Virus record (IMG/VR): IMGVR_UViG_3300010354_006477
Span: 1-60,512 of that record
Origin: a virus
Direction: 5' to 3' (one strand)
DNA: 60,512 nt
Shown in pieces: positions 3 to 20,480 of this stretch. Both the position numbers and the translations under genes were made by a program. Below the pieces are notes generated by a model. The model was not told the origin of the DNA and searched no databases. It was given only the letters and a program-made list of their open reading frames with translations. The stretch's first letter is position 1; each line of letters opens with the position of its first letter.

Positions 3-695
3 TACTTTATACATACATGGGACACTAACACTTATAGGCCTAATACACAAACACAAGTTTACACTGATGAGCCAGTGGCTGCGGATACTGCGGAAAAAAT
101 TAAAGCAGCTTACGCACCCAAAGATTTTTGTATGGATGTCTGGCCAGGCTTTTTGGAAAGAACTAAATCGACAAGAAATTTCGACGGCATGTTTTACAGT
201 TTCATGAAAAGTGTACACATGAAGCGCCGGTATGAATTAGCCAATGACTTTGAATATGACTGTGTTATAAAGGCACGATTAGACACAATTTATAATCCCT
301 ATAATCATTTTATAGTACACACAATGAGTCCACTCATGTGCTATAGTTGTACGCCAATAGCTAGGTTTCCGCACGAGTTTCATTATAATAATTTTGACGA
401 TGTATTTTATTATGGCGACAGTAAGACCATGGATTTAGTTGCTAACATCTATAACATACATAAACAAAAAAGAGACTTATATCCGGATCTTGCTTCAATG
501 ATATATAAGGATCCGGAATTATATTACGGTCCTGGTTGTATGTTGTATAAGAATCTAATTGAAATGGCAATTCATCCTCACTGCTTTAATAGTTTTCCAT
601 GGTATGTAGTTAGAAAAAATGTAGCGGATAGTGGGCTAGATCCTATTAATGATTGGGATCAAGTAATGAAGCTTTGTATGGATTGGTATAGATGA
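3..695 (+). CDS. Glycosyltransferase-like protein, 5' end outside window
   Basis: The frame is open to the left edge, so the first codon seen is not a start; a GTG at 75 is an internal alternative only. The visible part begins with FIHTWD, then has an aromatic-rich middle and VIKARLD about 90 residues in. A His-Thr-Trp near the N-terminus followed by an R-x-D segment is a pattern I associate with small viral and bacterial glycosyltransferase-like proteins. No full catalytic signature can be checked because the N-terminus is missing. It overlaps the next gene by four bases (ATGA), so it belongs to the same transcription unit. It could be another nucleotide-sugar-binding protein. Confidence 0.5.
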   Translation, partial: YFIHTWDTNTYRPNTQTQVYTDEPVAADTAEKIKAAYAPKDFCMDVWPGFLERTKSTRNFDGMFYSFMKSVHMKRRYELANDFEYDCVIKARLDTIYNPYNHFIVHTMSPLMCYSCTPIARFPHEFHYNNFDDVFYYGDSKTMDLVANIYNIHKQKRDLYPDLASMIYKDPELYYGPGCMLYKNLIEMAIHPHCFNSFPWYVVRKNVADSGLDPINDWDQVMKLCMDWYR

Positions 696-1594
696 GTTTA
701 TTAGACTCTGTTGATAAATTGACATTAATAACCAATGGTGATAGCTGGACCTTTGGATCTGAAATAGTCTCGCCAGAACTAGTTAAAGAAAATCCTGATG
801 CCACACATGTCTGTCAGTACGATTTTTATGAAAACAACGATGCCTATAGAGTGCCTAGAACTTATCCCAGCTACCTTGCTGAAAAGTTAAATGCTGATGT
901 GGTCAACTTGGCATGGCCTGCTGACGACAATGGCAGCATATTGCGTAGAACTATTGATTACATTACAACAAATTATATTGCTGTTAACAGATCCACTGAT
1001 GACCTTTTTGTAGTTGTAGGATGGAGTAGCCCTGAGCGTAATAGTTTTTGGTTCAAGGATGACAACACTTCGGAGCCGTTTAGACTTTGGCCTAATGTGC
1101 CAAACTTTACTCACAAAGCACAAGAAAAATTCTGGGAACTGTATGTGGCTTATTTGTGGAATCCCGAAGAATATATACCACGCTTTATACTGAACTGCAT
1201 CCAGCTAGATAACTTTTGTAGAGCACATGACATAAAATTTCTACAGTTCAATGCATTCTATCAAACACCTAACTCTAATATTGATGCATGGCAAGAACTA
1301 AACATACAACAAGAATTGAATAAGTTAAAGTTATCGGGCTATCAATATACAAATAGTAATTTAAAATATAGGCAACACAATCTTTTTGACTATTCGGCAA
1401 TATGGAATAATGTTAGAAATTTTTACAAAAAAGATCAACCTAATAGTACATTTAAAAGTTTTATTGATAATGCCGGCCTAGAACATCCTTATTGTAATAT
1501 CGGTCAAGGAGCTGGCTGGCATCCTAGTCCGCAAGCACATCAGGCTTGGGCTCAGGAGTTATACAGATATATTCAGGAAAATAATTTGCTATGA
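692..1594 (+). CDS. SGNH/GDSL-type hydrolase-like protein
   Basis: This 300-residue protein opens with a beta strand and the block I motif NGDSWTFGSE, where the Ser of GDS is the expected nucleophile of SGNH hydrolases and acyltransferases. It continues with DVVNLAWPADDNGS (block II-like) and FVVVGWSSPER, and ends with GWHPSPQAH, where the His would complete the active site. No signal peptide is visible, so it should act in the cytoplasm. Known family members hydrolyse or transfer acyl groups on sugars and lipids; the substrate here is unknown. The gene overlaps both neighbours by four bases. It is the first of three consecutive SGNH-like genes and eight in the window. Confidence 0.7.
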   Translation: MSLLDSVDKLTLITNGDSWTFGSEIVSPELVKENPDATHVCQYDFYENNDAYRVPRTYPSYLAEKLNADVVNLAWPADDNGSILRRTIDYITTNYIAVNRSTDDLFVVVGWSSPERNSFWFKDDNTSEPFRLWPNVPNFTHKAQEKFWELYVAYLWNPEEYIPRFILNCIQLDNFCRAHDIKFLQFNAFYQTPNSNIDAWQELNIQQELNKLKLSGYQYTNSNLKYRQHNLFDYSAIWNNVRNFYKKDQPNSTFKSFIDNAGLEHPYCNIGQGAGWHPSPQAHQAWAQELYRYIQENNLL

Positions 1595-2397
1595 CAATAT
1601 TATATGCAAATGGTTGTAGCTGGACTGCTGGCATGGAGTTAGAATATGATACAGAATTGTTTAATTCTTGGCGTAGTCAACAACCAGCAGAATTTAACAT
1701 AGTCGACTACTACAATCTATATAATTGGCCTGCTTTTCTTGGAAAAAAATTAGAAGCCACTGTTATTAACGCCAGCATTGGCGGAGGATCTAATCAACGC
1801 ATGATAAGAACAACGCTAGATTATATCAACAGCTTAGATCAAAATCAGCGTGATGATTTAGTTGTAGTGTTGGGCTGGACCAGTGCCGAACGAGGAGAAA
1901 TTTACATAGAAGATCCTCGCATACCAGGCTGGCACAGATTTAACATGACACAGATGTTTGGAGATTTTTTGTATGACTATGAACGGGCCCGCGTTCCTGA
2001 CTTGGTCAAGGACATAGAAAAATACCAAGAGCATTACATAGCGTCTGGACTTAGCCTAATAGGATCAATCGAAATATATCTACAGCAGCAGTTCATGATG
2101 AAAAACACATTGGAAAATTTAGGCATTAAGTATCTATTCTTTCAAAGTGTTCCGGCATGGTGGGATGTTTGGATGCAACCAAAAGGAATCGATGTTTATA
2201 AATTATTTCCTGTGCAATTAAAAAATACTGAACACGCGAACAACATCGGTATATACTTCAATGATGCTATGCAAACTGTCTGCAATGTTCAGGGATTTAG
2301 ACATGCGCCAGCTATGCATGTTTTAATAGAGGGACATAAGTATTGGGCTGAAGAAGTTTTATATCCTAGATTAATGGAGTTATATGGCGAAGAATAA
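1591..2397 (+). CDS. SGNH/GDSL-type hydrolase-like protein (GCS variant)
   Basis: This 268-residue relative of the preceding gene has NGCSWTAGME in place of GDSW, so the Asp of GDS is replaced by Cys while the nucleophilic Ser is kept. VINASIGGGSNQRM gives a Gly-rich oxyanion-type block II with Asn. LVVVLGWTSAER matches the previous protein closely, pointing to tandem duplication and divergence. A His-containing C-terminal segment (RHAPAMHVLIEGHKYWA) supplies candidate catalytic His. The start overlaps the previous stop (ATGA) and the end overlaps the next start by 14 bases. Activity as a sugar O-acyl hydrolase or transferase is inferred only. Confidence 0.65.
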   Translation: MTILYANGCSWTAGMELEYDTELFNSWRSQQPAEFNIVDYYNLYNWPAFLGKKLEATVINASIGGGSNQRMIRTTLDYINSLDQNQRDDLVVVLGWTSAERGEIYIEDPRIPGWHRFNMTQMFGDFLYDYERARVPDLVKDIEKYQEHYIASGLSLIGSIEIYLQQQFMMKNTLENLGIKYLFFQSVPAWWDVWMQPKGIDVYKLFPVQLKNTEHANNIGIYFNDAMQTVCNVQGFRHAPAMHVLIEGHKYWAEEVLYPRLMELYGEE

Positions 2398-3199
2398 TAT
2401 TGTTATTTGTGGCGACAGTTTTAATATTGGCATAGGCTGTCACAATCTTGATACTGAACCTTACGGGCAGTTACTAGGCCAAACGCTAGGTAAGGATGTC
2501 ATTAACTTGGCTAAAGGATCTAGCACTAACTTCAGCATTTATTTGCAGGCACAATATGCTGCGGAAAAATATACCGACTCTGCCGATTTAGTTATTATTA
2601 GTCACACTAGCTACGATCGTGTAGATTGGTTCCCCATGGACTATGACTTCCCACGCGGCGAAATTACACTGGCAGATGTTAATTACCATCAATATCCTCC
2701 TTACGGAGAACACACATATCATGTGCATGATCATGAAGTTAGGCTCAAGCATCCTTTAGTTAATGATCCCAATTATACTGGCGCAATGTTCACTGACAAT
2801 CTTATGGGTGTTATTGACTATTGGGAAAATTTTGGCAGCAAAGACATAGACTCAGGTTACTACGCTAGATTTCGCACTGAACCAAAACAGCGCATGAAAA
2901 CTCTATACGATTATGGAACCACTATTCATGAGACCAGAATTAACAGAATTCAAACAATTGGATTGATGACCATGGCACATCAATTACTAAAGCGTGCCAA
3001 TATAAATCATTTGATCTTAACACATGAACCAGACTATTATAAAAAGTTCATTGACTCTATAAATATTTGTGAATTAAGCTGGGGACAGTTGAGCATTGAT
3101 TACCCTGACGATTTGCCAAGTTGGCATACCGGCGCAGCAGGACATCGCTGTGCCTACGATAAGATTATGGAAAAATTAAAGGAAAATGCATGGACATAA
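2384..3199 (+). CDS. SGNH/GDSL-type hydrolase-like protein
   Basis: This 271-residue protein has IVICGDSFNIGIG at its N-terminus (block I with GDS), VINLAKGSSTNFS (block II) and SWHTGAAGH near the C-terminus as the likely His block. It is the third member of a tandem array of SGNH-fold genes. It overlaps the upstream gene by 14 bases and the downstream cupin by 10 bases, consistent with translational coupling. A TATAAATA identical to the T4 late-promoter core lies inside it at 3058-3065 on the plus strand, but in such AT-rich coding sequence this may be chance. Substrate unknown. Confidence 0.65.
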   Translation: MAKNNIVICGDSFNIGIGCHNLDTEPYGQLLGQTLGKDVINLAKGSSTNFSIYLQAQYAAEKYTDSADLVIISHTSYDRVDWFPMDYDFPRGEITLADVNYHQYPPYGEHTYHVHDHEVRLKHPLVNDPNYTGAMFTDNLMGVIDYWENFGSKDIDSGYYARFRTEPKQRMKTLYDYGTTIHETRINRIQTIGLMTMAHQLLKRANINHLILTHEPDYYKKFIDSINICELSWGQLSIDYPDDLPSWHTGAAGHRCAYDKIMEKLKENAWT

Positions 3200-3630
3200 A
3201 AATTGTTAATAAACATTGGGGACATGAATTATGGATTGCTGACGGTGTCAGAACTCCGTATGCTTTAAAAAAGATTTTGTTCAAATCCGGCAATAGAACT
3301 AGCTTGCAAGTTCATAGAGAAAAATTTGAAACCACTTATGTATTAAGTGGCACTGGAAAACTTTATCGTAGTAAAGAATTGTTCGATATTGATAAATTCC
3401 TAGCCGACGGTATGACAGACGAAGAGGTTGTCATATATGAAAGAACATTTGATGTCATTGATTTGTATGAAGGAATGGCATTTGATATCAAGCCAGGATA
3501 TGTACACCGTGTTGTAGCAACAACTGATTTAACTTTTATTGAATCTAGTACTTGCCATTTAGACGATGTTATTAGACTTCAAGATGACAAGGGGCGCAAG
3601 CACGGAAAGATCAGCTACGAGCATGAGTAA
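3190..3630 (+). CDS. Cupin-domain protein, phosphomannose isomerase type II-like
   Basis: This 146-residue single-domain protein begins NKHWGHELWIA, the opening typical of the cupin domain of type II phosphomannose isomerase/GDP-mannose pyrophosphorylase proteins. The sequence LQVHREKFETTYVLSG supplies the His and Glu metal ligands of cupin motif 1. IKPGYVHRVVA supplies the motif 2 His. Free-standing versions are usually sugar-phosphate isomerases or epimerases. It overlaps the start of the nucleotidyltransferase-kinase fusion by eight bases, so the two probably act in one sugar-activation pathway. The exact sugar cannot be told from sequence. Confidence 0.75.
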   Translation: MDIKIVNKHWGHELWIADGVRTPYALKKILFKSGNRTSLQVHREKFETTYVLSGTGKLYRSKELFDIDKFLADGMTDEEVVIYERTFDVIDLYEGMAFDIKPGYVHRVVATTDLTFIESSTCHLDDVIRLQDDKGRKHGKISYEHE

Positions 3631-5164
3631 TACAGTAATCATTCCAACTGCCGGTCTGGGCAGTCGTATGGGTAACTATACTAAAAATCTCAATAAAGCA
3701 CTGTTACCTTTTCTTGACAAGCCGGTAATTGGACACATAATTGAACAGTTTCCCAAAGACACTAGATTTGTTATTCCAGTGGGTTATCTTGCACAGCAAG
3801 TAAAAGATTTTTGCAACATTGCTTATGCTGACAGGCACATAGAGTTTGTTGATATTGATGACTGGACTGGCCCTAAAAGTGGAACAGGGTATAGTGTATT
3901 ACAATGTAAGTCAGCTATTGACGGCCCGTTTTGGTATGTGACCTGCGACACTTATTTTGATCAGCCTATTATGGATAGAGTTCGAAATAAGGATTGCTAT
4001 TTTGTAAAACATGTGCCTGAAAACATCACCAGTTTATACACTATGTTTAAAATTGGTCGTGATTCTACAATACAGGATATTACTTTCAAGCAGCAGCAAA
4101 ATTCAGAATGGGCAGCATGGACTGGGCTAATGTACATACACGATTGGCAAAAGTTCTTCGATGACTTAACTGAGCACAATGGTACAGAATTTATACCCAT
4201 TATCCGTCGTGGTAGCGATACTGCAATATTAGATACATGGCTTGACTTCGGCAGCGCAGAACAGTATACTACTGCATTAAGCAAAAGCCAGAAATTTGAT
4301 TTTAGTAAAACCAACGAAGTAACTTATATCTGCAATAACAAAGTTGTCAAGTGGTGGTTAGACAGTTCTGTAGCCAAAAAGAAATATGACAAAACTCAGG
4401 CTAATCCTAATGTGTTTCCTAGTCGCTGTGAATATGTGGGCAATTATATGGCCTATGATTTCCATCCAGGACAGACTTTATATAGTTTTAATCATCCTGT
4501 TGTATTCACAGACTATCTTGCTTGGCTAAAGAGGGATGTGTGGCAACCAGTAGACTTGGATCTTAGAGCCGCTTGTATAGAATTTTACAAAACAAAAACA
4601 CTGGCCAGAGTCGATAAGTTTTTACAAAAATATCCTGCACTCAGTGAAATTAAGTACATCGATGGCGTCGAAGTTAAAGACTACAAATACTATTTAGATA
4701 GCATAGATTGGGATTACTTATCTACAACTTATGCAGCAGGATTTACACACGGCGATTTACATTTTGATAATACTATTATCGGCCCGCGTGGAGACTTTAA
4801 AGTAATTGATTGGCGTCATGAGTTTGCTGATATAGTAGAGTATGGCGACATATACTACGACTTGGCCAAGCTCATGGGAGGCTTTGTAATCAATTATGCT
4901 AATATCAAAGAGCATAATTTTAATATTGAAATAGATGGCGACTCGGTTACATTAAGTGTACCGCATGTGGATCATTATGATGTGTATATCAAGCGTCTTA
5001 AAGAGTTTGTTATAAGCGAAGGTTACGACTACAAAAAGGTACAACTGTTAGTACCTATTATATTTTGGAATATGAGCCCGCTGCATACTGCACCATTTGA
5101 TTTATTTTTGTGGTATTTAGGTATTAAATTATTTCAGGAAATAGAAAATGCAAACGCTAATTGA
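3623..5164 (+). CDS. Fusion of sugar nucleotidyltransferase and APH/choline-kinase-like domain
   Basis: The chosen ATG at 3623 gives 513 residues starting directly with the nucleotidyltransferase strand; the frame extends 57 bases upstream but only into the cupin gene. Residues 1 to about 230 form an NTP-transferase domain with PTAGLGSRM, KALLPFLDKPVI and a later DTWLDFGS. The C-terminal half carries FTHGDLHFDNTII and FKVIDWRHE, the catalytic and Mg-binding motifs of aminoglycoside phosphotransferase and choline kinase folds, followed by YDLAKLMGG. The protein could phosphorylate a small molecule or sugar and activate it as a nucleotide derivative, comparable in logic to the separate LicA and LicC proteins. 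Substrates are unknown. Confidence 0.8.
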   Translation: MSNTVIIPTAGLGSRMGNYTKNLNKALLPFLDKPVIGHIIEQFPKDTRFVIPVGYLAQQVKDFCNIAYADRHIEFVDIDDWTGPKSGTGYSVLQCKSAIDGPFWYVTCDTYFDQPIMDRVRNKDCYFVKHVPENITSLYTMFKIGRDSTIQDITFKQQQNSEWAAWTGLMYIHDWQKFFDDLTEHNGTEFIPIIRRGSDTAILDTWLDFGSAEQYTTALSKSQKFDFSKTNEVTYICNNKVVKWWLDSSVAKKKYDKTQANPNVFPSRCEYVGNYMAYDFHPGQTLYSFNHPVVFTDYLAWLKRDVWQPVDLDLRAACIEFYKTKTLARVDKFLQKYPALSEIKYIDGVEVKDYKYYLDSIDWDYLSTTYAAGFTHGDLHFDNTIIGPRGDFKVIDWRHEFADIVEYGDIYYDLAKLMGGFVINYANIKEHNFNIEIDGDSVTLSVPHVDHYDVYIKRLKEFVISEGYDYKKVQLLVPIIFWNMSPLHTAPFDLFLWYLGIKLFQEIENANAN

Positions 5165-6199: not shown

Positions 6200-7272
6200 T
6201 GGATATAAAAAAATTTAAACTAGGCTTCGGCCCGATGAGTGATGAAATAATTCGAATACTAGCAGAACATACAAAAGAATATCCTTTAATGATTATTGCT
6301 AGTAGAAATCAAGTTGATTTTGATTCTGGCTATGTATGCACCACACACGAACTAGCAGCTAAAGTAAAAGCCTTTCGCGGTGATAATTTGTTGTTATGTA
6401 GAGATCATTGTGGTCCATACTTTAGCGACAAAGACAAAGGGCTACCAATTGCTGATGCAATTGTAAGATGTAAACAAACTATACAAGCAGACATTGCTGC
6501 TGGCTTCGATTTAATTCATATCGATGTTAGTCGCATACCTGAAAATCAATTGAGTTACGCCACCGAACTTATTGATTTCACACTAAGCATTAAACCTGAC
6601 ATGCTGTTAGAGTTTGGTAGTGAAGACAATACAGGTGTGGATATTAATAGTAGCATTGGAAGAATTGAAAGCCAGCTAGAGTTTTTAGCCAAGTACCATA
6701 AAAATGTTAAGTTCTTTGTGACACAAACTGGTAGTCTAACTAAAGATAATCAAGTGGGAAGTTTTGATGTCAATCGAAACCATCGAGTAAGTTTACAATT
6801 ACACAACGCAGGTTTTTTATTTAAAGAACATAATGCAGATTATTTTACTGAGTCGGATATTGAATTAAGAATCAAAGGCGGAGTTGATAGCTTAAACATT
6901 GCACCGCAGTTAGGAAAGATTCAAACTGATTTACTAAAAGAATTTAGTCCTGAAAATTTATGGTCGAAATTTGCTGACATGGTTTACAGCAAAAATTATT
7001 GGCAACGGTGGGTAGCCGAAGGCGTAACTGACAAAGATATCGCCGTAAGCGTTAGCGGTCATTATTGCTTTAACAGTGACGAGTATCGTGCTATTATGAC
7101 CGCCATTGATGTCGACGACTTTGTTAAACAGCTAAAATCAAAAATCGAATCATTATTAGTTTTATACAAAAAGTTTGACCAAAGCCATAATTCTGCCGAA
7201 GCAGAGTTCGAAAAGAAACTACGACTACGGTTAGAAGAACTGCGTCGAAGAGATCCATTTATATATCGATGA
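6199..7272 (+). CDS. Tagatose-bisphosphate aldolase GatZ/KbaZ-like protein
   Basis: This 357-residue protein matches the GatZ/KbaZ layout: PLMIIASRNQVDFDSGY corresponds to the family's ATSNQVN-x-GGY segment, LLCRDHCGPY to GGDHLGP, and GFDLIHIDVSR to GFSKIHLDAS. A later LEFGSEDNTG matches the family's GTEVP-containing strand. GatZ and KbaZ are TIM-barrel partners of the class II aldolases GatY and KbaY; no GatY-type partner is visible here, so this may be a stand-alone aldolase with its own substrate. The A of its ATG is the last base of the upstream stop codon, and it overlaps the carbamoyltransferase by four bases. Family placement is fairly secure; reaction is inferred. Confidence 0.7.
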   Translation: MDIKKFKLGFGPMSDEIIRILAEHTKEYPLMIIASRNQVDFDSGYVCTTHELAAKVKAFRGDNLLLCRDHCGPYFSDKDKGLPIADAIVRCKQTIQADIAAGFDLIHIDVSRIPENQLSYATELIDFTLSIKPDMLLEFGSEDNTGVDINSSIGRIESQLEFLAKYHKNVKFFVTQTGSLTKDNQVGSFDVNRNHRVSLQLHNAGFLFKEHNADYFTESDIELRIKGGVDSLNIAPQLGKIQTDLLKEFSPENLWSKFADMVYSKNYWQRWVAEGVTDKDIAVSVSGHYCFNSDEYRAIMTAIDVDDFVKQLKSKIESLLVLYKKFDQSHNSAEAEFEKKLRLRLEELRRRDPFIYR

Positions 7273-8741
7273 ATATTTGGGGAATAAGTGCTAACAGTCA
7301 TGATGCTGCCGTCAGTGTTTGGCACGATAAAGAATTAAAATTTGCAGCACACAGCGAACGCTATAGCGGCATCAAAAATGATGGCGATCTCTGTGCAGGT
7401 ATTATTACTGATGCAGAACAGTTTGGTCGTCCAGATTTAATTGTTTGGTATGAGGATCCAAAACTTAAAACTGCTAGACAATATATTGCCGGCCAAGGAG
7501 ATCGTACAAAGGAAAATGATGTTGTCTCATACCTAGCCAAGTATAATCTTACCGCACCGGTTCATATTGGTCAACATCATCATAGTCATGCTGCTGCTGG
7601 ATATTACACTGGCGGTTTTAAAGATGCTACAGTTATAGTTATTGATAGCATAGGCGAGTTTGAAACTTTAACAGTTTGGACCGGAGTCGACAATAAACTA
7701 ACTAAGCAATATAGTCAAAGTTATCCAGACAGTGTTGGTCTTTGGTTCAGTGCAATGACACAGCGTTGCGGTTTAAAACCCAACGAAGAAGAATATATCC
7801 TTATGGGTATGGCTGCTTATGGTGATCCCAATAGATTAAAGGCAGACATATATAACGATTTCTTTGATACTATACGCGGCGCAGAAATTAAATTCAAGCG
7901 TAACTTACATCGAGGATGCCCGGACTGGAGATTAGATCTTCTTAAAGAGCAAGATATATTTGATATTGCCGCAGCAACACAACAAATTTATATTGAATTA
8001 CTGCAAGGCATTGTCGCTTGGGCCAAAAGAACATTACCTAGTAGTAATCTAATACTCATGGGAGGTTGTGCTCTCAATTGTGTAGCTAATAGCGAAATTA
8101 CAGCAGGATGGAATAATGTTTGGATCATGCCCAATCCTGGCGATGCTGGTTCAGCTGTTGGAGCAGTCTGCGGTTATTTTGAAGAACATGTTGTTTGGCC
8201 TGGCCCATATTTAGGCACAGACATGGGGAAGCAATATCCTGTTGAACAACTTATTGAAAACTTAAAGCGTGACAAAATAGTTGGTGTTGCTAGTGGACGA
8301 GCTGAATACGGTCCCCGTGCATTGGGTCATCGTAGTTTATTAGCAGATCCGCGCGGCCCGGATATCAAAGATAAAGTCAATGACATTAAACGCAGACAAA
8401 AGTTCCGTCCATTTGCTCCGGCTATTTTGGAAGAACATGTACACGAATATTTTGAAATGCCTGCCGGAATAACGGCAAGTCCGTTTATGCAATTTGTGGC
8501 AAAGTGTAGACAACCTGACTTGTTTCCTGCTATAATACATGGAGATGGCACAAGCCGAGTTCAAACTGTTAGTAAGAACGATAGTCCGGGATTCAGAAAA
8601 TTGTTAGAAGATTGGTACAGCGAAACTGGATGTCCGATGTTGTTGAATACAAGTTTGAACATTAAAGGTCAACCAATGGTAAATGATATCAAGGATGCAG
8701 CAGCGTTCTACGAACGATATCATGTGCCAGTACTAACATGA
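7269..8741 (+). CDS. O-carbamoyltransferase, NodU/CmcH/TobZ family
   Basis: This 490-residue protein has both domains of the family. The Kae1-like N-terminal part has GQHHHSHAAAGYY (metal-binding His residues), IDSIGEFETLTVW and LMGMAAYGD, with LMGGCALNCVANS later. The C-terminal YrdC-like part has GRAEYGPRALGHRS and LLNTSLNIKGQPM. Family members form carbamoyl-adenylate from carbamoyl phosphate and ATP, then transfer the carbamoyl group to a hydroxyl of a sugar or antibiotic. Length is slightly below the usual 550-600. Flanked by an aldolase-like gene and glycosyltransferase-like genes, the acceptor is plausibly a sugar. The ends overlap neighbours by four bases. Confidence 0.92.
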   Translation: MNIWGISANSHDAAVSVWHDKELKFAAHSERYSGIKNDGDLCAGIITDAEQFGRPDLIVWYEDPKLKTARQYIAGQGDRTKENDVVSYLAKYNLTAPVHIGQHHHSHAAAGYYTGGFKDATVIVIDSIGEFETLTVWTGVDNKLTKQYSQSYPDSVGLWFSAMTQRCGLKPNEEEYILMGMAAYGDPNRLKADIYNDFFDTIRGAEIKFKRNLHRGCPDWRLDLLKEQDIFDIAAATQQIYIELLQGIVAWAKRTLPSSNLILMGGCALNCVANSEITAGWNNVWIMPNPGDAGSAVGAVCGYFEEHVVWPGPYLGTDMGKQYPVEQLIENLKRDKIVGVASGRAEYGPRALGHRSLLADPRGPDIKDKVNDIKRRQKFRPFAPAILEEHVHEYFEMPAGITASPFMQFVAKCRQPDLFPAIIHGDGTSRVQTVSKNDSPGFRKLLEDWYSETGCPMLLNTSLNIKGQPMVNDIKDAAAFYERYHVPVLT

Positions 8742-11700
8742 TTAAAATAGACAAAAACATAGTTCAAACAATTACATGGGAACAGGATCCTAATACATTT
8801 GATCGTAGATTACATGCAGCCGGTCAAGCCCATGATGAGTTTATCGTTGTTAATCCTAAGTACGATCCATGGATTTTAGACTATATTGATCCCAAAGAGA
8901 TCGTCAGCGACAAATGTGTAGTCTGGGCCATAGATAACTTGTGGCTAGTTAAGAAATTTAAAAGGTCTTGGACCGAATCCAAAGGCTGGGACTTGGTTCA
9001 TTGTGAACTTGATATTGAAAAGTCTGTTAAGTTCAATCCCGAAGTCAAGTTCATTAATACTAGTTTACGCAACAGCATTGAAAACTATAAAATTAATATT
9101 GAAGATGCTGCCAGCGAACATGTATGGTATACAGAGGATCGTGTCTGGATCGCCAAGGCCGTTGCTACAGAATTTGAAATAACTGGCAGCAAAGACATGG
9201 GTGTATTGTCTGCGCCGTTAGTTTACAATCCGGCATTGCCTGAAGTTGATTTTGACATAACAATAGATTTACCTTACTTTCACTATGACTATAACTACGA
9301 ACTAGTCTGGTATATAGACGACAAGTTTAATAATGATGGTGTAAAGATATGGGTAGCAAAGTTTTTACCTGACGCATCTCAAGGTGTCAAAGACATGGGT
9401 TATGTTCAACCGGTGATTGAATATAACTCTTATATACCTATTGACGAGTTTGATAGCATCTCTGCTCCTTATCAAGATTTAATCTACGAGCATGTATGGT
9501 ATCTTGATTCTGGCTTTACTTATTTAGGTGATAAGATTTGGGCAGCGAAAATTACTCCGCGCAATAGTCAAGGCTACAAGGAAAAAGGTTTTATTAAGCC
9601 CAAAGATTACGCAGGTCCAGTTATGGAATACAATCCTGCTATACCTCAAGTTGAGTTTGATTTTAGTCGTCGTGTTGTATACCACGACCTCAACTATGAT
9701 TTAGTATGGTACTTAGATCCTAATTATGTAGAAGATTCCACAAAAGTCTGGGCAGTAAAGATCGCATCTGTTGGTCCAAGCAAAGGCGTCAAGGACATGG
9801 GCTATGTTGGTCCGGTTATTGAATACAATAAAGATATTCCTGATGTTGATTGTGTAGATAATACCGCAGCAACATATATCGACTTTGACTACGAACTAGT
9901 TTGGTACCTGGATCCTAAGTTTAACTTTGATAACGAAAAGATTTGGGTTAAGCGTATAACACCTAAAAATTCTAAAGGTGTTAAGGACATGGGTTATACT
10001 AGCCCTCTGATCGAATATAACAGTGATATTCCTTCTGTTAAATTTGATGTTGAATTTAGTATACCCTATCAAGACTTAATATACGAGCATGTTTGGTATA
10101 TAGATAAAAAGTTTAACTTCGAACCAGCAAAAGTCTGGTACGCTAAAATCAGTCCTCGCACAGTTCACGGTCACAAAGACATGGGCTTTGTCAGTCCTGT
10201 ATTAATAACTAATCCAGCTCTTAACAATTTTAACTTTGATATCAGAACAGCTACTCCTTATTATAATCTGGACTATGAACTGGTATGGTATTTAGACAAC
10301 AATTATAACCCGACTGAAGAAAAGATTTGGGCAGCAAAAATTAAACCTATTAATGAGCCCCAAGGACTTAAAGACATGGGCTATGTTAGTCCCATAGTCG
10401 AATACAATCAAGACATACCTAGGTTCGATATTGAAGAAGACCAGTCGGCTACATATATTGATTTTGAATATGAACTAGTTTGGTACTTGGATCCTAAGTT
10501 TAACTTTGATAACGAAAAGATTTGGGTTAAAAGGATTAGACCTAATAAATCTTTGGGTGTCAAAGACATGGGCTATGTTCGTCCTGTAATCAAATATAAT
10601 CCTGACATTCCTAAGGTTGCGTTTGATGTTGATATATCTGTTCCTTATCAGGATCTAATATATGATCATGTATGGTATTTAGATCAACGTTTTAATCCTC
10701 TAGAAGATCGTGTATGGGCTATTAGAATAGCTGTGTCCGAGTCTCAAGGTCTTAAGACTATGGGATCAGTTAGTCCCATTATTAAAAAGAATCCTGCTAT
10801 TCCTGATGTTAATTTTGTGTTTGATGAAGTTCTGCCATACTACGAATTTAAAAATGATATAGTATGGTATATTGATCCAAGATTTAACCCCACTGATGAC
10901 AGTATCTGGGCATTGCGAATCGATAGTCTGGAGCCAGATCCAGGATTAAAAGATGTAGGCTTTGCACATCCTGAGTTTGTTTATAATCCTGATATTCCTC
11001 GACTGGATTATTTTATTGACGATCATATTCCCTATTATGACCTAGGTTATGAACATGTGTGGATGCTAGATGATAATCTACATACAGATAATGAAAAGAT
11101 TTGGGCAGCAAGAATTATACCTAATGGTCAACGATTAGGTGTTAAAGAAGTAGGTAATATTGGGGTTCGATTTGGCGGCTTTGATGTAGTGTTTATTAGC
11201 TATCATGAACCCAATGCCGAAGCCAATTGGCAGCGTGTTCTGGAAATTTGCCCGACTGCCAAACGAGTTAAAAATGTCAAAGGTATCTTTCAAGCACATA
11301 AACAGGCTGCTGCTTTAGCCACTACAGAAATGTTTTATGTAGTTGACGGTGATGCCGAGCTAGTAGACAACTGGCGCTTTGATTTTAGACCCAATGTGTT
11401 CGACATGGACTGCGTACACTTGTGGACCAGTATCAATCCCATTAATGATTTAGAGTACGGCTATGGTGGTGTTAAGTTGTTCCCAAGACAAATGCTGTTA
11501 GATGCTGAAACTTGGAAGATTGACTTAACCACCGGACTAGGTAAACTTAAACTAGTTAACAAAATCAGTAATGTCACTGCTTTTAACTATGATGCTTTTA
11601 CTACTTGGCGTAGTGCTTTTAGAGAATGTGCTAAGTTAAGTTCTAGTCTAGATCCGGATGCTGAGCGCAGATTAGAAATTTGGTGTACACAAGGCATGGA

Positions 11701-11845
11701 CAGACCCAACGGCCAATACGCCATTGATGGTGCAAAACTAGGCAGACAATACGGCCTAGACAACTTAAATAACACTGACAAGTTAAAATTAATCAACGAC
11801 TACGAATGGATGAAAAATGAGTTTAATGAATTCTATAAACACTAA
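8738..11845 (+). CDS. Large repeat protein with C-terminal glycosyltransferase-like domain
   Basis: This 1035-residue protein has an N-terminal region of about 127 residues, ten to eleven tandem repeats of about 64 residues, and a C-terminal domain of about 220 residues. Each repeat opens LVWYLDPKFN or HVWYIDKKFN, then has KIWAAKI, GVKDMGYV, a P-x-IEYNPDIP segment and a PYxDLxYE ending. The C-terminal domain (VVFISYHEPNAEANW, AHKQAA, FYVVDGDAELVD, YGYGGVKLF) is shared with the next two genes. VDGD resembles the DxD metal-binding motif of GT-A glycosyltransferases. No signal peptide or membrane segment is visible. The repeat module may bind glycan or be a scaffold; its function is not known to me. 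Confidence 0.75.
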   Translation: MIKIDKNIVQTITWEQDPNTFDRRLHAAGQAHDEFIVVNPKYDPWILDYIDPKEIVSDKCVVWAIDNLWLVKKFKRSWTESKGWDLVHCELDIEKSVKFNPEVKFINTSLRNSIENYKINIEDAASEHVWYTEDRVWIAKAVATEFEITGSKDMGVLSAPLVYNPALPEVDFDITIDLPYFHYDYNYELVWYIDDKFNNDGVKIWVAKFLPDASQGVKDMGYVQPVIEYNSYIPIDEFDSISAPYQDLIYEHVWYLDSGFTYLGDKIWAAKITPRNSQGYKEKGFIKPKDYAGPVMEYNPAIPQVEFDFSRRVVYHDLNYDLVWYLDPNYVEDSTKVWAVKIASVGPSKGVKDMGYVGPVIEYNKDIPDVDCVDNTAATYIDFDYELVWYLDPKFNFDNEKIWVKRITPKNSKGVKDMGYTSPLIEYNSDIPSVKFDVEFSIPYQDLIYEHVWYIDKKFNFEPAKVWYAKISPRTVHGHKDMGFVSPVLITNPALNNFNFDIRTATPYYNLDYELVWYLDNNYNPTEEKIWAAKIKPINEPQGLKDMGYVSPIVEYNQDIPRFDIEEDQSATYIDFEYELVWYLDPKFNFDNEKIWVKRIRPNKSLGVKDMGYVRPVIKYNPDIPKVAFDVDISVPYQDLIYDHVWYLDQRFNPLEDRVWAIRIAVSESQGLKTMGSVSPIIKKNPAIPDVNFVFDEVLPYYEFKNDIVWYIDPRFNPTDDSIWALRIDSLEPDPGLKDVGFAHPEFVYNPDIPRLDYFIDDHIPYYDLGYEHVWMLDDNLHTDNEKIWAARIIPNGQRLGVKEVGNIGVRFGGFDVVFISYHEPNAEANWQRVLEICPTAKRVKNVKGIFQAHKQAAALATTEMFYVVDGDAELVDNWRFDFRPNVFDMDCVHLWTSINPINDLEYGYGGVKLFPRQMLLDAETWKIDLTTGLGKLKLVNKISNVTAFNYDAFTTWRSAFRECAKLSSSLDPDAERRLEIWCTQGMDRPNGQYAIDGAKLGRQYGLDNLNNTDKLKLINDYEWMKNEFNEFYKH
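9119..11173 (+). repeat. Tandem 64-residue repeats (about 193 nt each) within the large protein
   Basis: Ten full units and one partial unit can be counted by the H/L-VWYLD opening and the KDMGYV centre. Units 5 and 8 begin with the same 21-residue run of protein sequence, and the DNA at 9872-9954 and 10451-10533 is nearly identical. The 579-base offset equals three units, which indicates that a three-unit block was duplicated recently. Other units have diverged strongly but keep the aromatic and charged framework. Confidence 0.85.
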
Positions 11846-12821
11846 TAGTTTAACATCTACCAATTATACATTTCGCCTTAAGGATATTCCTGTAGTATTT
11901 TTAAGTTACGACGAACCTAATGCCGACGAAAACTTTGAACGACTAAAGGCTACTCACCCTAACAAAAATTTAGTGCATCGTGTACATGGTGTTAAGGGAC
12001 TCGATGCTGCACACAAGGCCTGTGCTGCATTTGCCGAAAACGATAGATTCTTTACTGTAGATGGCGACTGCTATGTTGACTCTGCTATATGGCGTCAAAG
12101 TATTGAAGTTCCAGCCAATGATATACGAGCAACATTCAGCTGGAGCAGTCGCAACATTGTCAATGGTCTTGTTTATGGCAACGGCGGAGTTAAGTTATGG
12201 TACGCACCATATGTATTAAACATGCGTACACATGAAGCTGCTACTAAAGATGATAATGACAACAATGTAGACTTTTGTTGGGACTTTGAAAACTACAAGC
12301 AAATGAACAACACTTATGGCACTGTTATGAACAATGCCAGTCCTTTCCAAGCATTCAGAGCAGGCTTTAGAGAGGGTGTAAAAATGGGGCTAGATCAAGG
12401 GCACAAAGTAAACATCGAAGACTTCAATCATAAAATGTATCCTGGCAACTTTGCTCGTTGGCTAATATGGATGACGGTGGGTCGCGATGTTGACAATGGA
12501 GCTTGGGCAATCTACGGCGCTAGACTCGGTGCTTATAATTTGTACATCGAAAACTTTGATCATAGTCTAATCAGCGACTATGATTGGTTTAAGGCATACT
12601 GGTCAGACATCGAAGAGCTAACTACTAATCCCGACGAAGACAGCAATCGTGTCATGCAGGCCTTAGTCGAGAAGCTTAACTTGCCACTAGCAGAACTCGA
12701 CGCCGGCCAAAGCCGCTGGTTTAAACATGTTAACATTAATCCTCCTAAGAATTTTGGCTGGCCTGCAATGCTAAATCACAGTGCGCTACCTTTGTTTGGA
12801 TTTACACTACCTAGGTTTTAA
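11817..12821 (+). CDS. Glycosyltransferase-like protein, second of three paralogues
   Basis: This 334-residue protein shares the C-terminal domain of the preceding repeat protein without the repeats: VVFLSYDEPNADENF, VHGVKGLDAAHKA, FFTVDGDCYVDS and NGLVYGNGGVKLW are matched in order. VDGD is the likely DxD-type nucleotide-sugar and metal site, and GNGGVKLW is a conserved Gly-rich turn. The ATG at 11817 overlaps the previous gene by 29 bases; an ATG at 11826 is possible. A GGATG six to seven bases upstream favours 11817. Role inferred as sugar transfer to a phage or host acceptor; no acceptor is visible. Confidence 0.65.
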   Translation: MSLMNSINTNSLTSTNYTFRLKDIPVVFLSYDEPNADENFERLKATHPNKNLVHRVHGVKGLDAAHKACAAFAENDRFFTVDGDCYVDSAIWRQSIEVPANDIRATFSWSSRNIVNGLVYGNGGVKLWYAPYVLNMRTHEAATKDDNDNNVDFCWDFENYKQMNNTYGTVMNNASPFQAFRAGFREGVKMGLDQGHKVNIEDFNHKMYPGNFARWLIWMTVGRDVDNGAWAIYGARLGAYNLYIENFDHSLISDYDWFKAYWSDIEELTTNPDEDSNRVMQALVEKLNLPLAELDAGQSRWFKHVNINPPKNFGWPAMLNHSALPLFGFTLPRF

Positions 12822-12822
12822 A

Positions 12823-13497
12823 ATGACGCCTGTTTATTTTTTATATACTGACGAATTAAATCGCGAAGAAAACTTTAAAAGATTGCAAAGCAAAGTGCCG
12901 CATGCCCATAGTGTTGCAGCAGTAGGTAATATTTTTGCTAGCCATAAACACATTGCCAACATTTGCGATGCTGACAGATTTTATGTTGTAGACGCAGATT
13001 GCTGGATAGTTGACAGTTTTAATTTTGATAAACAAATTGATCTCAAGCCTAAGAGCGTAGCAGTATTTCGTGCCAAAAATCCCATTAACGGGTTAGTCTA
13101 TGGCCATGGCGGTATTAAATTGTTTAGCAAAGATTGTTTTAGTGCAGAGCGATTGGATCGTCCGGACATGACAACAACATTAGCTGACAGCTATATCAAA
13201 GTAAATGTACTAGCTAGTGAGCATAGATTTAATTACACACCATTTTCAACTTGGCGTACTGCATTCCGCGAAGCAGTAAAACTCAGTGCTGGTATTAATA
13301 AAAATAACAACGATCAAGAAAGTCTAGATCGTCTCAATATGTGGCTGAATGCTGGCTTGGAAGCTAAACATGGATATTTTAGTGTACATGGTGCTCGTGC
13401 TGGAGAATTATTTGCCGCACAGCCCGGCAGTGATCTTAACTTAGTTAATGACTTTAAATTTATTGAGTTTAAATTCAGGGAGTGGCTAGGTGTATAA
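12823..13497 (+). CDS. Glycosyltransferase-like protein, third of three paralogues
   Basis: This is the shortest of the three paralogues (224 residues from the ATG at 12823, directly after the previous stop). It keeps PVYFLYTDELNREENF, ASHKHIAN, FYVVDADCWIVDS, NGLVYGHGGIKLF and STWRTAFREAVKLS, all in the same order as the C-terminal domain of the large repeat protein. VDAD replaces VDGD as the DxD-type motif. A longer frame upstream would run inside the previous gene and lacks homology to its sisters, so the later start is chosen. It overlaps the following radical SAM gene by eight bases. Confidence 0.65.
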   Translation: MTPVYFLYTDELNREENFKRLQSKVPHAHSVAAVGNIFASHKHIANICDADRFYVVDADCWIVDSFNFDKQIDLKPKSVAVFRAKNPINGLVYGHGGIKLFSKDCFSAERLDRPDMTTTLADSYIKVNVLASEHRFNYTPFSTWRTAFREAVKLSAGINKNNNDQESLDRLNMWLNAGLEAKHGYFSVHGARAGELFAAQPGSDLNLVNDFKFIEFKFREWLGV

Positions 13498-14668
13498 TTA
13501 TCAGGACATTGAAGTAGTTCATTTAGAAATGACAGAGGCCTGTAACGCTTCGTGTCCTATGTGTGCAAGGAATTTAAATGGCGGAGATATTAATCCTCAT
13601 CTTAATGGGCGCGAACTTAGCATTAGCGACATTGAACATATATTTAAAATAGACTTTGTAAAACAATTAAAACGCATTTACATGTGCGGCAACTACGGCG
13701 ATCCGGCAGTAGCCAAAGATACGCTAGAAGCATTTGCGTATTTTAGAGAACATAATCCAGACTTGTTTCTAAGTATGCATACCAATGGCTCAATGAAGAA
13801 GCCTGAATGGTGGGCAGAATTGGCAAGTGTAATTGGGCGCAAAGGTTATGTAGTATTTGGCTTAGATGGCTTAGAAGACACTAATCATTTGTATCGTCAA
13901 GGCACGGTATGGTCTAATATAATGCGTAATGTTGAAGCATTTATAAAAGCCGGAGGCCGTGCGCGATGGGATTTTATTGTTTTTGCTCACAACGAACATC
14001 AAGTTGAAGCTGCTGAAGAACTATCAAAGCAAATGGGCTTTGAAAAGTTTCAATACAAAAAGTCTGCAAGATTCTTTAGCAATACAAAAGCACAAACTAA
14101 AGATGCACATCAAGCACAAAACCGTAAAGGTTTGACAACATTATTGCAAGCTCCGACTAATCCCAAGTATCGCAACGCTGTATTAGATAAGCTAAAAGAA
14201 GCAGCTAATCCTGCTAATGAACAAAAGATTACAGTAGACAATGTAGTAACAATTGACAAGCTCACTGGGCTTCAAGGTATCCAGACTTTTAGCACTGATC
14301 CTGCTAAAAAGAAACCAGTAGAACATATTTGGGACGAAGCTGTCATTGACTGTAAAGTAGCTAAAGAAAAGAATTTATATATCACTGCTGAAGGTGTTGT
14401 GCAGCCTTGCTGTTGGCTTGCTGGCCAGATGTATGTTTGGTATTATAAAGAACAAGGTGCCCAAGTTTGGAAGTTTATCAATGAAGCAAGTGTTGATTCA
14501 ATTGATGCTAAAAAACATAGTCTAGAAGAAATTATACAAGGTGACTATTTTCAGAAAATAATCCCCGACAGCTGGAACAAGCCCAGCTGTGCCGAAGGCA
14601 AAAGTTCAATGTGCGCTAAAATTTGTGGAACTAAATACGATGCGTTCAAAGAACAATTCAATACATGA
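13490..14668 (+). CDS. Radical SAM protein with C-terminal SPASM-like region (GDP-motif subgroup)
   Basis: This 392-residue protein starts at a GTG overlapping the previous stop. CNASCPMC near residue 19 is the CxxxCxxC [4Fe-4S] motif that binds S-adenosylmethionine. The usual GGEP strand motif is replaced by CGNYGDP. LDGLEDTNHLYRQ and FAHNEHQVEAAEEL follow. The C-terminal part has GVVQPCCWLAG and a further Cys cluster ending CAKICGT, consistent with a SPASM or twitch auxiliary Fe-S site. It belongs to a subgroup of four in this window. Radical SAM enzymes with SPASM regions modify peptides or sugars; the substrate is unknown. Confidence 0.85.
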   Translation: MYNYQDIEVVHLEMTEACNASCPMCARNLNGGDINPHLNGRELSISDIEHIFKIDFVKQLKRIYMCGNYGDPAVAKDTLEAFAYFREHNPDLFLSMHTNGSMKKPEWWAELASVIGRKGYVVFGLDGLEDTNHLYRQGTVWSNIMRNVEAFIKAGGRARWDFIVFAHNEHQVEAAEELSKQMGFEKFQYKKSARFFSNTKAQTKDAHQAQNRKGLTTLLQAPTNPKYRNAVLDKLKEAANPANEQKITVDNVVTIDKLTGLQGIQTFSTDPAKKKPVEHIWDEAVIDCKVAKEKNLYITAEGVVQPCCWLAGQMYVWYYKEQGAQVWKFINEASVDSIDAKKHSLEEIIQGDYFQKIIPDSWNKPSCAEGKSSMCAKICGTKYDAFKEQFNT

Positions 14669-15630
14669 CGACACCTATTGAAATATTTAATGATTCTAAT
14701 AGATTCACAATCGACTGGACTCTAAATACTTTATGCACTTATCATTGCAGTTATTGTCCTCCTGAATTACATCGGGGCAGAAATGTGTTTCGAAATCGCG
14801 AGGAAGATCAGTTAGTTTTATTAAATTTTCTCAACAAGCTTCGATTACAATTAAAAGATCGCAGCGTACATATTTTTATTAATGGCGGCGAACCTACTAT
14901 AAGTCCGGTTTTTGAAACTCTACTAGATTTTATAGACTCGGCCGGCTGGTCGGCTTATGTTAATACTAACGCTAGTCGTAGTTTAGATTGGTGGCAGCAG
15001 TACGCTAAGAAAGCTTTTAAAATTACTGTTAGTTATCATCCAGAGTCGGTCAATGACGATGAAATATTTGAAAAAGTTGAGTATATCAGCACGCAAACTA
15101 ATGTAGGCGTATTTACACTTATGTATCCGCCATTATGGGATAAAGCTGTTAACGCTTATAATCGATTTAAAACTATGCCCGCAGTAACTGTCGGAGCTAG
15201 CAGAGTTTTTAAACGGGACACTCAACAAGTTTCGTCTAGCTATGAATATTCATTAGAGCAGTTAGCTTGGTTAGAAGAAAACAGTCGAGTTATTTTTAAG
15301 ACAGGGATAAAGAGATATAGTCCCGGAAGTGCGTTCGGGCAAACATTTATAAAGCACAATGATTCTACTATTGAAAGAATGGACGAAGTTGAGCTAGTTA
15401 ATAAAGGGCAGAATAAATTTTTAGGCTGGTCCTGTACTATGGGTCAGAATCACTTGTTTATTGATTCCAATTGGAATATAAGGCCAGCTACTTGCAATAC
15501 ATTATCTACTTTTACTACAATTGAAAAGTTTGATAAACTACTTAGTGAAGATGTTTATTGTCGAGATAATTATTGTATGTGTACAGCAGATGTAATGATA
15601 CCAAAAAAATATGAATCCGTATCTTCCTAA
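14665..15630 (+). CDS. Radical SAM protein, compact type
   Basis: This 321-residue protein has CTYHCSYC at about residue 24 as the radical SAM cluster motif, followed by FINGGEPTISP, the standard GGEP SAM-binding strand, and SYHPESVNDDE. Near the C-terminus it has GWSCTMGQNHLFID and DNYCMCTADV, indicating possible auxiliary cluster cysteines. It differs from the GDP-motif proteins on both sides and resembles the gene at 30890-32056 in having Cys-Ser-Tyr-Cys and a classical GGEPT. The start overlaps the upstream stop by four bases, and the end overlaps the next gene by 20 bases. Confidence 0.85.
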   Translation: MTTPIEIFNDSNRFTIDWTLNTLCTYHCSYCPPELHRGRNVFRNREEDQLVLLNFLNKLRLQLKDRSVHIFINGGEPTISPVFETLLDFIDSAGWSAYVNTNASRSLDWWQQYAKKAFKITVSYHPESVNDDEIFEKVEYISTQTNVGVFTLMYPPLWDKAVNAYNRFKTMPAVTVGASRVFKRDTQQVSSSYEYSLEQLAWLEENSRVIFKTGIKRYSPGSAFGQTFIKHNDSTIERMDEVELVNKGQNKFLGWSCTMGQNHLFIDSNWNIRPATCNTLSTFTTIEKFDKLLSEDVYCRDNYCMCTADVMIPKKYESVSS

Positions 15631-16675
15631 TCCAAGAAAATTACAATTTGAACTAAGCTCTATGTGCAATGCATTATGCTTAGGTTGTGTTCGCACCGAT
15701 TCAACTTCGTTTAATGAAAAGAAATATGTAATCCCTGAAAAACAATATATCAGCTTTGATGTTTTTAAGAAAATATTATTATCGCCTAGTTTTAGTTCTA
15801 TAGAAGAATTAGAGTTTTGTGGCACTATCGATGATCCTTTGATGCATCCCGAGTTCCTGGAGTTTTTAGATTGGGCTAGCACAGTAGGTCGATATAATGT
15901 ATTAATTCATACTAATGCCAGTTTACGCAATACCAAATATTGGCAACGAATGGCAGAAATTTTACAAAAGCACGATAGGCATGTAGTAAAATTTAGTATC
16001 GATGGCATGGAAGATACTAACCATATCTATAGACAAAATACTATTTGGTCTAAAATCATGGAAAATGCACGAGCATTTATTGCGGCCGGCGGCAACGCAG
16101 GCTGGCAATATTTAATATTTCCATGGAACGAACATCAAATCATGGAAGCAAAACAACTCAGTGTCGAAATGGGGTTCAATGAATTTATGAGTCGCCATGA
16201 CAGAAGTGTTGCTACAAGTCTCGGTTTAGAAAAAATACAAAAAATTAAAGTCGATGACATTAAACGTCGTTCCTCTTACACTGATCTAACCTCTATTAAT
16301 AACAGATTAGCAGATTCAGTTCATAACGAAATTCAATGTAACAATCAAACTAAAAAAATGTACTTTATTGGGTTTGATAGTAGACTATGGCCTTGTTGTT
16401 TCCTGCATAACGGCCTTATAAATTTAGATCAAGGAAAAGTCGATGCGCTGAAAAAAAGATTATATGATGCATACGGCGACGATTCTTGGAATGATCTAAC
16501 TAAACATACTGTCGAGGAAATTCTTCAACACGAATTTTATCAAAATGATCTGGTGGCAAGCTGGTCTGACTACGAACACGATATAACTAAAACAAGTAGA
16601 ATATATAGATGTACAGAAGTCTGCAACGTTAAGAAACTTGAAGTTCTTCCAATTGGAAATTACAAAATACTATGA
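15611..16675 (+). CDS. Radical SAM protein with SPASM-like region (GDP-motif subgroup)
   Basis: The 354-residue protein has CNALCLGC at about residue 19 (CxxxCxxC). In place of GGEP it has FCGTIDDPLMHP, then IDGMEDTNHIYRQ and FPWNEHQIMEAKQLSVEMGF, which align closely with the gene at 13490. SRLWPCCFLHNG and a final CTEVCNVKKL form the C-terminal Cys pairs. The close match to the 13490 and 22063 proteins shows duplication within the genome. Overlaps of 20 and four bases with its neighbours place it in a continuous operon. Confidence 0.85.
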   Translation: MNPYLPNPRKLQFELSSMCNALCLGCVRTDSTSFNEKKYVIPEKQYISFDVFKKILLSPSFSSIEELEFCGTIDDPLMHPEFLEFLDWASTVGRYNVLIHTNASLRNTKYWQRMAEILQKHDRHVVKFSIDGMEDTNHIYRQNTIWSKIMENARAFIAAGGNAGWQYLIFPWNEHQIMEAKQLSVEMGFNEFMSRHDRSVATSLGLEKIQKIKVDDIKRRSSYTDLTSINNRLADSVHNEIQCNNQTKKMYFIGFDSRLWPCCFLHNGLINLDQGKVDALKKRLYDAYGDDSWNDLTKHTVEEILQHEFYQNDLVASWSDYEHDITKTSRIYRCTEVCNVKKLEVLPIGNYKIL

Positions 16676-17615: not shown

Positions 17616-19019
17616 ATGGCAGAATTACCAAGTAAAACATTTTGTATCCTACCATGGATACATTTAAGCACTAGACCAAATGGCCACATGAGAGTGTGCT
17701 GTACTGCTAATGCCAGTAGCGTTGGGCCCACCAACGACAAAGTATATGGCGGAGAAGTAGGCGTACTTAAAAATGCCGACGGTAAACCTGCTAACTTAAA
17801 TCATACGGACTTTCTAAGTAGTTGGAACAACGACTATATGAAAAATAACCGCTTGCAAATGTTAGCAGGGCAAGAACCTCCTAGCTGTATCAAGTGCTAT
17901 AAAGAAGAACGCGAAGGACATCGCAGTAAGCGTCAATGGGAAACCGAATATTGGAGCAAGCGAGTAGATGTTGACCAGCTAGTACGCGACACAGCAGAAG
18001 ATGGTAGTATTCCTCCCAAGATTAGCTACATTGACATGCGATTTGGTACTAAATGTAACTTGGCTTGCGTAATGTGCAGCCCGCATGACAGTAGCTTATG
18101 GATTCCCGAATGGCAAAAGATGTATCCTCAAGTGCAAAACCCAACACTCAAAGATACAATGCAATGGGGTAACAAAGGACAAGAAAACGGCGCCAGCTAT
18201 AACTGGCACAAGAACAATCCTAAGTTCTGGGAACAGCTTTGGGAACAAGTGCCGCATATGAAACAGCTATACTTTGCTGGCGGCGAACCCTTAATCATTG
18301 AAGAACATTATGCTATATTAGAAGAATGTATTAAGCAAGGTTATGCCAAGGACATGGAAATACGATACAACAGCAACGGTGTTGAATGGCGTGAAGACTT
18401 GTTTGAACTATGGAGTCATTTCAAGCTTGTTCGTTTCCACTACAGCGTTGACGCTATCGAGCAACGCAATGAATACATTCGCTATCCCAGCAAGTGGGCT
18501 CGCACAGTCGAAGCATTTAGACAGCTAGATAACGAAACTACAGACAATGTTGAAATTACCATTGCCTGTGCAGTACAAGCACTGAATATTTATTACATTC
18601 CCGAATTCCTGCGCTGGAAGCTAGAGTTTGGATTTAAGAAAATTAACATGTGGCCATTCGGCGCCGGCGGTGTTAACTATCACTTTGTTTATCATCCACC
18701 GCATCTTAATGTTAAGATATTACCTGCATGGTTTAAAGACGAAATCGAAGCCAAGTATGAAGAGTTTATTCCATGGTGGAAAGCAAACTGGCAAAAAGGT
18801 GTACCCACATGGCATGCGGGTAAAGTTACAGAAGAGCAGTGGCTCAATGCTGACTATGGCATAAGCAGACTGCGTGGCATGGTGCGTTTTGCTAAGAGCG
18901 AGGACTGGAGTCGCAGGCTGCCTGAAACTAAAGAATATTTGGAATTATTGGATCGTCAGAGAGGTACAGACTTCTATTCAACATTTCCAGAAATGAAGGA
19001 CATATTTAGGGATCTTTAA
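17616..19019 (+). CDS. Twitch-type radical SAM protein
   Basis: The 467-residue protein begins FCILPWIHLSTRPNG followed by RVCC and, about 55 residues later, SCIKCYKEE. These Cys in front of the core are characteristic of twitch/SPASM-like radical SAM proteins with N-terminal auxiliary cluster residues. The core motif is CNLACVMC at about residue 145, with FAGGEPLIIEEHY as the SAM-binding strand. The C-terminal half is rich in Trp and Tyr. Such proteins occur repeatedly in large environmental phages. It is followed without a gap by three SGNH-like genes, suggesting a shared substrate. Confidence 0.85.
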   Translation: MAELPSKTFCILPWIHLSTRPNGHMRVCCTANASSVGPTNDKVYGGEVGVLKNADGKPANLNHTDFLSSWNNDYMKNNRLQMLAGQEPPSCIKCYKEEREGHRSKRQWETEYWSKRVDVDQLVRDTAEDGSIPPKISYIDMRFGTKCNLACVMCSPHDSSLWIPEWQKMYPQVQNPTLKDTMQWGNKGQENGASYNWHKNNPKFWEQLWEQVPHMKQLYFAGGEPLIIEEHYAILEECIKQGYAKDMEIRYNSNGVEWREDLFELWSHFKLVRFHYSVDAIEQRNEYIRYPSKWARTVEAFRQLDNETTDNVEITIACAVQALNIYYIPEFLRWKLEFGFKKINMWPFGAGGVNYHFVYHPPHLNVKILPAWFKDEIEAKYEEFIPWWKANWQKGVPTWHAGKVTEEQWLNADYGISRLRGMVRFAKSEDWSRRLPETKEYLELLDRQRGTDFYSTFPEMKDIFRDL

Positions 19020-20476: not shown

Positions 20477-20480
20477 CAAT

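Follow-up and report, generated by a model that had tools for sequence, protein, structure and literature searches.

According to a published survey of pelagimyophages, glycosyltransferases and radical-SAM cassettes are located in the host-recognition cluster of these phages (PMC7029224), and a second report records 12 radical-SAM genes in the genome of a T4-like environmental phage (PMC5332604). The S. sobrinus GTF-I glucansucrase carries tandem glucan-binding repeats that are required for efficient transfer (PMC12375890). For the combination of a repeat array, a glycosyltransferase (GT), and radical-SAM enzymes, our literature search yielded nothing beyond general accounts of marine phages that carry GT and radical-SAM genes. 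Here, we analyzed the 60.5-kb IMG/VR virus record IMGVR_UViG_3300010354_006477 (positions 1 to 60,512; hereafter the window), which contains a 1035-aa open frame at 8738-11845 on the + strand. The domains, repeat units, GT paralogs, carbamoyltransferase gene, and four radical SAM genes listed below with window coordinates are on this strand as well.

This gene encodes an N-terminal domain of ~92 aa (8738-9013), 11 tandem repeat units, and a C-terminal GT-A (GT2-like) domain of ~230 residues (11162-11842). A preliminary description of the DNA had reported ten or more regular VWYLD repeats fused to a GT-like domain at 8738-11845. The repeats and the fusion were borne out, whereas the array proper covers only 9014-11152 and is separate from the N-terminal and GT domains. 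A unit hidden Markov model (HMM) placed unit 1 (degenerate, with VWYTED) at 9014-9199 and unit 2 at 9206-9397, which are orthologs of the first and second units of the relatives, followed by unit 3 at 9398-9583, unit 4 at 9587-9799, unit 5 at 9800-9991, unit 6 at 9992-10183, unit 7 at 10184-10378, unit 8 at 10379-10570, unit 9 at 10571-10762, unit 10 at 10763-10957, and unit 11 at 10958-11152. Unit 11 is of the last-unit type (WMLD..LHT) and is orthologous to the last unit of the relatives, and unit 5 is nearest to unit 8 (73% aa and 78% nt identity). The N-terminal domain is common to complete repeat-bearing relatives and is not detectably a repeat: a degenerate "zeroth" unit seemed plausible by eye, but profile comparison of residues 1-92 with the repeat detected no homology (hhalign probability 0.6%).

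The open frame contains 11 VW[YM]x[DE] anchors spaced 61-70 residues apart, and the HMM scored the degenerate first unit at 34 bits and the remaining ten at 65-87 bits. Self-alignment of the protein in shifted registers gave E-values of 1e-86 to 1e-144, which excludes a chance origin of the pattern. The unit consensus is roughly GYVSPxIEYNPDIPxVxFDxxxxIPYYDLxYEHVWYLDPKFNPxxDKIWAAKIxPxxxxGVKDM, and among 205 units taken from dereplicated proteins, the most conserved positions were Asn (100%), two Trp (99% and 94%), Lys (93%), and Asp (91%). Mean identity among the window units was 43% at the protein level and 55% at the DNA level, a divergence too great for Tandem Repeats Finder, which detected no repeat at the array in the window DNA. 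The closest unit pairs showed dN/dS values of ~0.18-0.25 (units 5-8, 0.17/0.93; units 3-9, 0.36/1.46), and the units are therefore under purifying selection.

Structure prediction, which the preliminary description had proposed as a check, gave a confident fold: an AlphaFold2 model of window units 6-9 in tandem had a mean pLDDT of 95.6 and a pTM of 0.84, each unit being predicted as a short helix that leads into about three strands. Single-sequence and family scans of the repeat against Pfam, PHROGs, NCBIfam, and PDB sequences returned no significant and consistent match. Weak Pfam matches were scattered (SpoIVA_C at 0.17, ELF, and one WW_TCERG1 at 0.01) and were rejected as inconsistent across members. 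Foldseek comparison of the tandem model with the PDB reached a best E-value of 2.4 at a probability of ≤0.05; as Foldseek is insensitive for modules of ~65 residues, we do not claim a new fold, and the repeat may still have a known small one. Thus far, the earlier impression of a repeat unlike common ones holds, with no match to a domain of settled function in these resources, and the repeat constitutes an undescribed folded module, or new domain family, as far as these searches show.

The window also contains ten PF04055 matches, seven of them over the cut-off, in agreement with the many radical SAM enzymes noted previously. The preliminary description had raised, as a speculative option, that the repeats are a substrate, such that the radical-SAM enzymes or the GT itself would modify each unit and yield a repetitive modified protein. 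The number of radical-SAM genes in the operon and the aromatic-rich, strongly conserved positions of the unit speak for such a role, but the units are confidently folded domains rather than disordered segments, and the single Cys residue across the 11 window units makes Cys thioether chemistry unlikely. Known cyclophane motifs consist of an aromatic residue with Asp, Asn, Lys, or Arg at +2, whereas the +2 position after the conserved Trp residues of the unit is Leu/Ile or Ala/Val/Ile/Phe, and its invariant positions include no conserved tripeptide of the aromatic-x-Asp/Asn/Lys/Arg type. Nor do the repeats have the form of a radical-SAM RiPP precursor, in which the modified part of a short leader-core peptide contains Cys or a cyclophane motif. 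Additionally, repeat-less GT paralogs occupy the first position in other phages (L011-L020) and retain the same three-gene GT cassette, which indicates that the array is dispensable for some such enzymes and also argues against modification of the repeats as its purpose. We therefore regard the substrate role as very improbable.

Next to the array, the C-terminal domain was characterized through a short ortholog with three units (L052), which was predicted at a pLDDT of 94.1. Its best PDB matches in Foldseek were GtrB (E 1.5e-4), SunS (E 1.8e-4), ArnC, and ThuS, with E-values of 1.5e-4 to 5e-4 and probabilities of 0.94-1.00, followed by polypeptide GalNAc-transferases at E-values just above 1e-3. 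These matches assign the domain to the GT-A fold with a modest likeness (E ~1e-4; TM scores of 0.16-0.35 with a multi-domain query). The DxD motif (VVDGDAE; 11345-11353) did not vary among relatives from phages, Streptomyces, and Rhodobacter, with D60 and D62 (A6 numbering) invariant across eight diverse relatives. The Glu of SYxEP, NxxNxLxYGxGGxK, and RE were likewise invariant, even in the Streptomyces and Rhodobacter relatives at 29% identity. The window protein gave no hit to a curated GT2 profile; PF00535 was matched weakly by 3 of the 74 relatives (best E 0.094), and one cellular relative (L104) scored over a curated GT2 profile cut-off. Two repeat-less paralogs follow the repeat gene, one overlapping its end (11817-12821; 34% identical to the GT domain) and the other at 12781-13497 (33% identical). 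On a Streptomyces plasmid, a small standalone relative of the GT domain sits between annotated glycosyltransferase genes. On the basis of the modeled fold and the invariant residues, the C-terminal domain is a probable GT-A/GT2-type glycosyltransferase, as the preliminary description had supposed in general terms. A relative of this domain on a Rhodobacter plasmid (L101:8980-9906) adjoins type VI secretion genes.

Upstream genes differed among clades of repeat-bearing loci. In the window, the stop of a Nol-like carbamoyltransferase gene (7269-8741) overlaps the start of the repeat gene. Such a carbamoyltransferase is the upstream gene in the window's clade, where GatZ/KbaZ-like, shikimate-dehydrogenase-like, nucleotidyltransferase-kinase, and GDSL-type genes precede it; a second clade often has a nucleotide-sugar epimerase and a third a large Ig-like, fibre-like protein. 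The fibre-like proteins received no structural label in a PHROG search, and so "tail fibre" stays a putative designation for them. They bear on the possibility that the repeat protein is a virion structural protein or adhesin, in which the repeats would form a rod and the GT-like domain a non-catalytic binding head. Apart from this Ig-like neighbor in one clade, the evidence points the other way, as the catalytic-type residues do not vary between phage and cellular relatives, the domain stands alone among GT genes in Streptomyces, and the downstream genes include many enzymes; we consider a structural role the least probable of the readings discussed here. T4-type Gp23 was encoded in three repeat-bearing contigs (L040, L043, and L047), and the window itself had no Gp23 or Terminase_6N match.

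Several further features of these neighborhoods were observed. In the third clade, one upstream protein of 1707 aa (L086:2091-7214) has a subtilase domain together with putative Ig domains (phrog_9158), and proteins near and upstream of the repeat gene in two other contigs (L078:3967-5772 and L080:4041-6044) had weak matches, below the Pfam cut-off, to the self-splicing type Hint domain. In the window, a single ORF at 3566-5164 contains nucleotidyltransferase-like and phosphotransferase-like (APH) domains, a layout that we take to resemble LicC/LicA-type enzymes. ORFs that are GDSL/SGNH-like by eye (within 692-3199, 19020-21239, and 31980-34911) are scattered through the radical-SAM operon, and the stretch at 692-1594 matched Pfam DUF6071 and, weakly, Lipase_GDSL.

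A scan of 2.9 million viral contigs, which carried out the search in other phages suggested earlier, located repeat units in ~80 further viral-contig loci. The same GT domain followed the array in all 82 repeat-bearing ORFs, and almost every dereplicated case had a spacing of 7-10 aa between the two. Complete dereplicated arrays contained 2-17 units (median 4), and the 11 units of the window were the second highest number. The repeat was confirmed in none of the 84,980 bacterial and archaeal genomes scanned, in which the GT domain alone was common, and tblastn detected no match in 50,697 isolate phage records when two repeat-bearing members and two GT relatives lacking repeats served as queries. 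In the structure database BFVD, A0A6J5LK21 (E 1.4e-22) and A0A6J5L5L5 (E 1.7e-21) gave long structural matches across the query model. A maximum-likelihood tree built from the GT domain placed the repeat-bearing proteins on one side of a branch with moderate support (72/85; present in 73% of bootstrap trees), which fits a single gain of the array. The best match lay at the equal position in other proteins for 37 of 39 first units, 35 of 41 second units, and 39 of 44 last units, whereas 31 of the 86 middle units matched best a unit within their own protein. The ends of the array are therefore fixed, whereas its middle can expand.

Downstream of the GT cassette, radical SAM enzymes are encoded at 13490-14668 (the PF04055 match nearest to the repeat gene), 14665-15630 (partial STM4011-type match, below the family cut-off), 15611-16675 (partial N_Twi_rSAM match, below the family cut-off), and 17616-19019 (twitch-domain enzyme; NF033640, over the cut-off). 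The twitch-domain family NF033640 was the best or among the best matches of the radical-SAM proteins tested. Across loci, among genes encoding at least 200 aa, the CxxxCxxC motif was present in 106 of the 203 located downstream and in 0 of the 147 located upstream (Fisher p 1e-32, a value that overstates the case because genes of one cluster are not independent). In several contigs, the repeat protein and a radical-SAM enzyme are joined in one chain. The repeat protein runs on into a twitch/SPASM radical-SAM enzyme in L072, is fused to another radical-SAM type in L082 and L098, and to a third type in L060, where the Pfam match was below the cut-off. Counterparts of equal length in a second assembly (L072/L075, L082/L083, and L098/L099) argue against assembly error. 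An Oligoflexia bacterium encodes the reverse order, with a radical-SAM/SPASM-like region (PF04055 just below the cut-off) followed by the GT domain (L107:6804-8708). Such repeated fusion, seen both in related phages and in a bacterial genome, strongly supports a shared pathway, and the connection to radical SAM drawn in the preliminary description thus persists at this level: judged from gene and domain organization, the GT and the radical-SAM enzymes probably act in one pathway. In the Oligoflexia contig, further CxxxCxxC genes lie close by, after the fusion gene. GT, radical-SAM, and other genes also occurred in a phage-cluster-like order in a Rickettsiales MAG (L102) and a Neomarinimicrobiota MAG (L103), contigs that may be viral sequence within bacterial bins.

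These fusions also underlie the strongest rival to a glycan-related function of the array, namely a protein-protein scaffold whose units dock operon enzymes (radical SAM or the other GTs) or a virion protein near the GT. Docking would be in keeping with the direct fusions, which involve more than one radical-SAM family, with a gene order overlapping with radical SAM, and with the orthology of the end units. Copy number, however, ranges from 2 to 17 with no parallel shift in the number of neighboring enzymes noticed in an informal look, and no docking partner domain was identified. We consider the scaffold unlikely, although a protein-recruiting role fits the same facts (the architecture, the predicted GT fold with its conserved active-site-type residues, the radical-SAM coupling, the constant coupling of array and GT, and the variable copy number with conserved end units).

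We lean toward a glycosyltransferase in which the array engages the acceptor or positions it, within a host-recognition or surface-glycan cluster. The most economical interpretation is an array for carbohydrate binding, an option already raised in the preliminary description, or for positioning, and the array probably helps the enzyme to hold its glycosylation target; carbohydrate binding is proposed here by analogy, as the repeat lacks a functionally characterized relative. The gene product would act as a phage glycosyltransferase of the GT-A/GT2 type, with its N-terminal arm of small folded modules most likely binding or positioning the acceptor before the catalytic domain. The acceptor may be a growing glycan, or a glycoprotein or lipid bearing one. 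The two repeat-less GT paralogs, the carbamoyltransferase, and the sugar-nucleotide-type and radical-SAM enzymes of the operon would be its partners, and the product would be an unusual glycan of the phage host-recognition cluster, attached either to the host surface or to virion fibres. A more far-reaching reading, which we consider improbable, is that the array serves as a length-variable ruler or processive holder, in which the unit count would determine the extent or duration of GT-driven assembly of a radical-SAM-modified glycan; if true, this would be a glycan-assembly device of environmental phages, unlike known bacterial chain-length systems. In these searches, the repeat represents an undescribed and widespread domain family, encoded in environmental viral contigs only and always on one GT clade. 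From the fusions, we predict a common product of glycosyl transfer and radical chemistry, and the family offers an entry point to the question of what uncultured phages make with their many radical-SAM and sugar genes.

Among known systems, GTF-I resembles the window protein in having a repeat array on a glucan-making enzyme, a likeness of working principle for which we claim no homology; it differs in enzyme class (GH70), extracellular location, and the repeats themselves. Pelagimyophages and T4-like environmental phages have host-recognition clusters that offer a like gene neighborhood with GT and radical-SAM genes, and the portions of those reports that describe them do not mention the repeat protein (PMC7029224; PMC5332604). 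The structurally alike A0A6J5LK21 and A0A6J5L5L5 of uncultured Caudovirales are named "uncharacterized protein" and are known from their models alone. The GT-A GT2-like enzymes GtrB and ArnC and the peptide S-glycosyltransferases SunS and ThuS share the fold of the C-terminal domain and the DxD motif, at 8-14% sequence identity and with modest fold scores, and the phage enzyme alone adds an array of 2-17 units that has no PDB match. The catalytic fold is thus already known, whereas the array appears, as far as these searches show, to be a new domain family, and the architecture to which it belongs was encountered in viral contigs alone.
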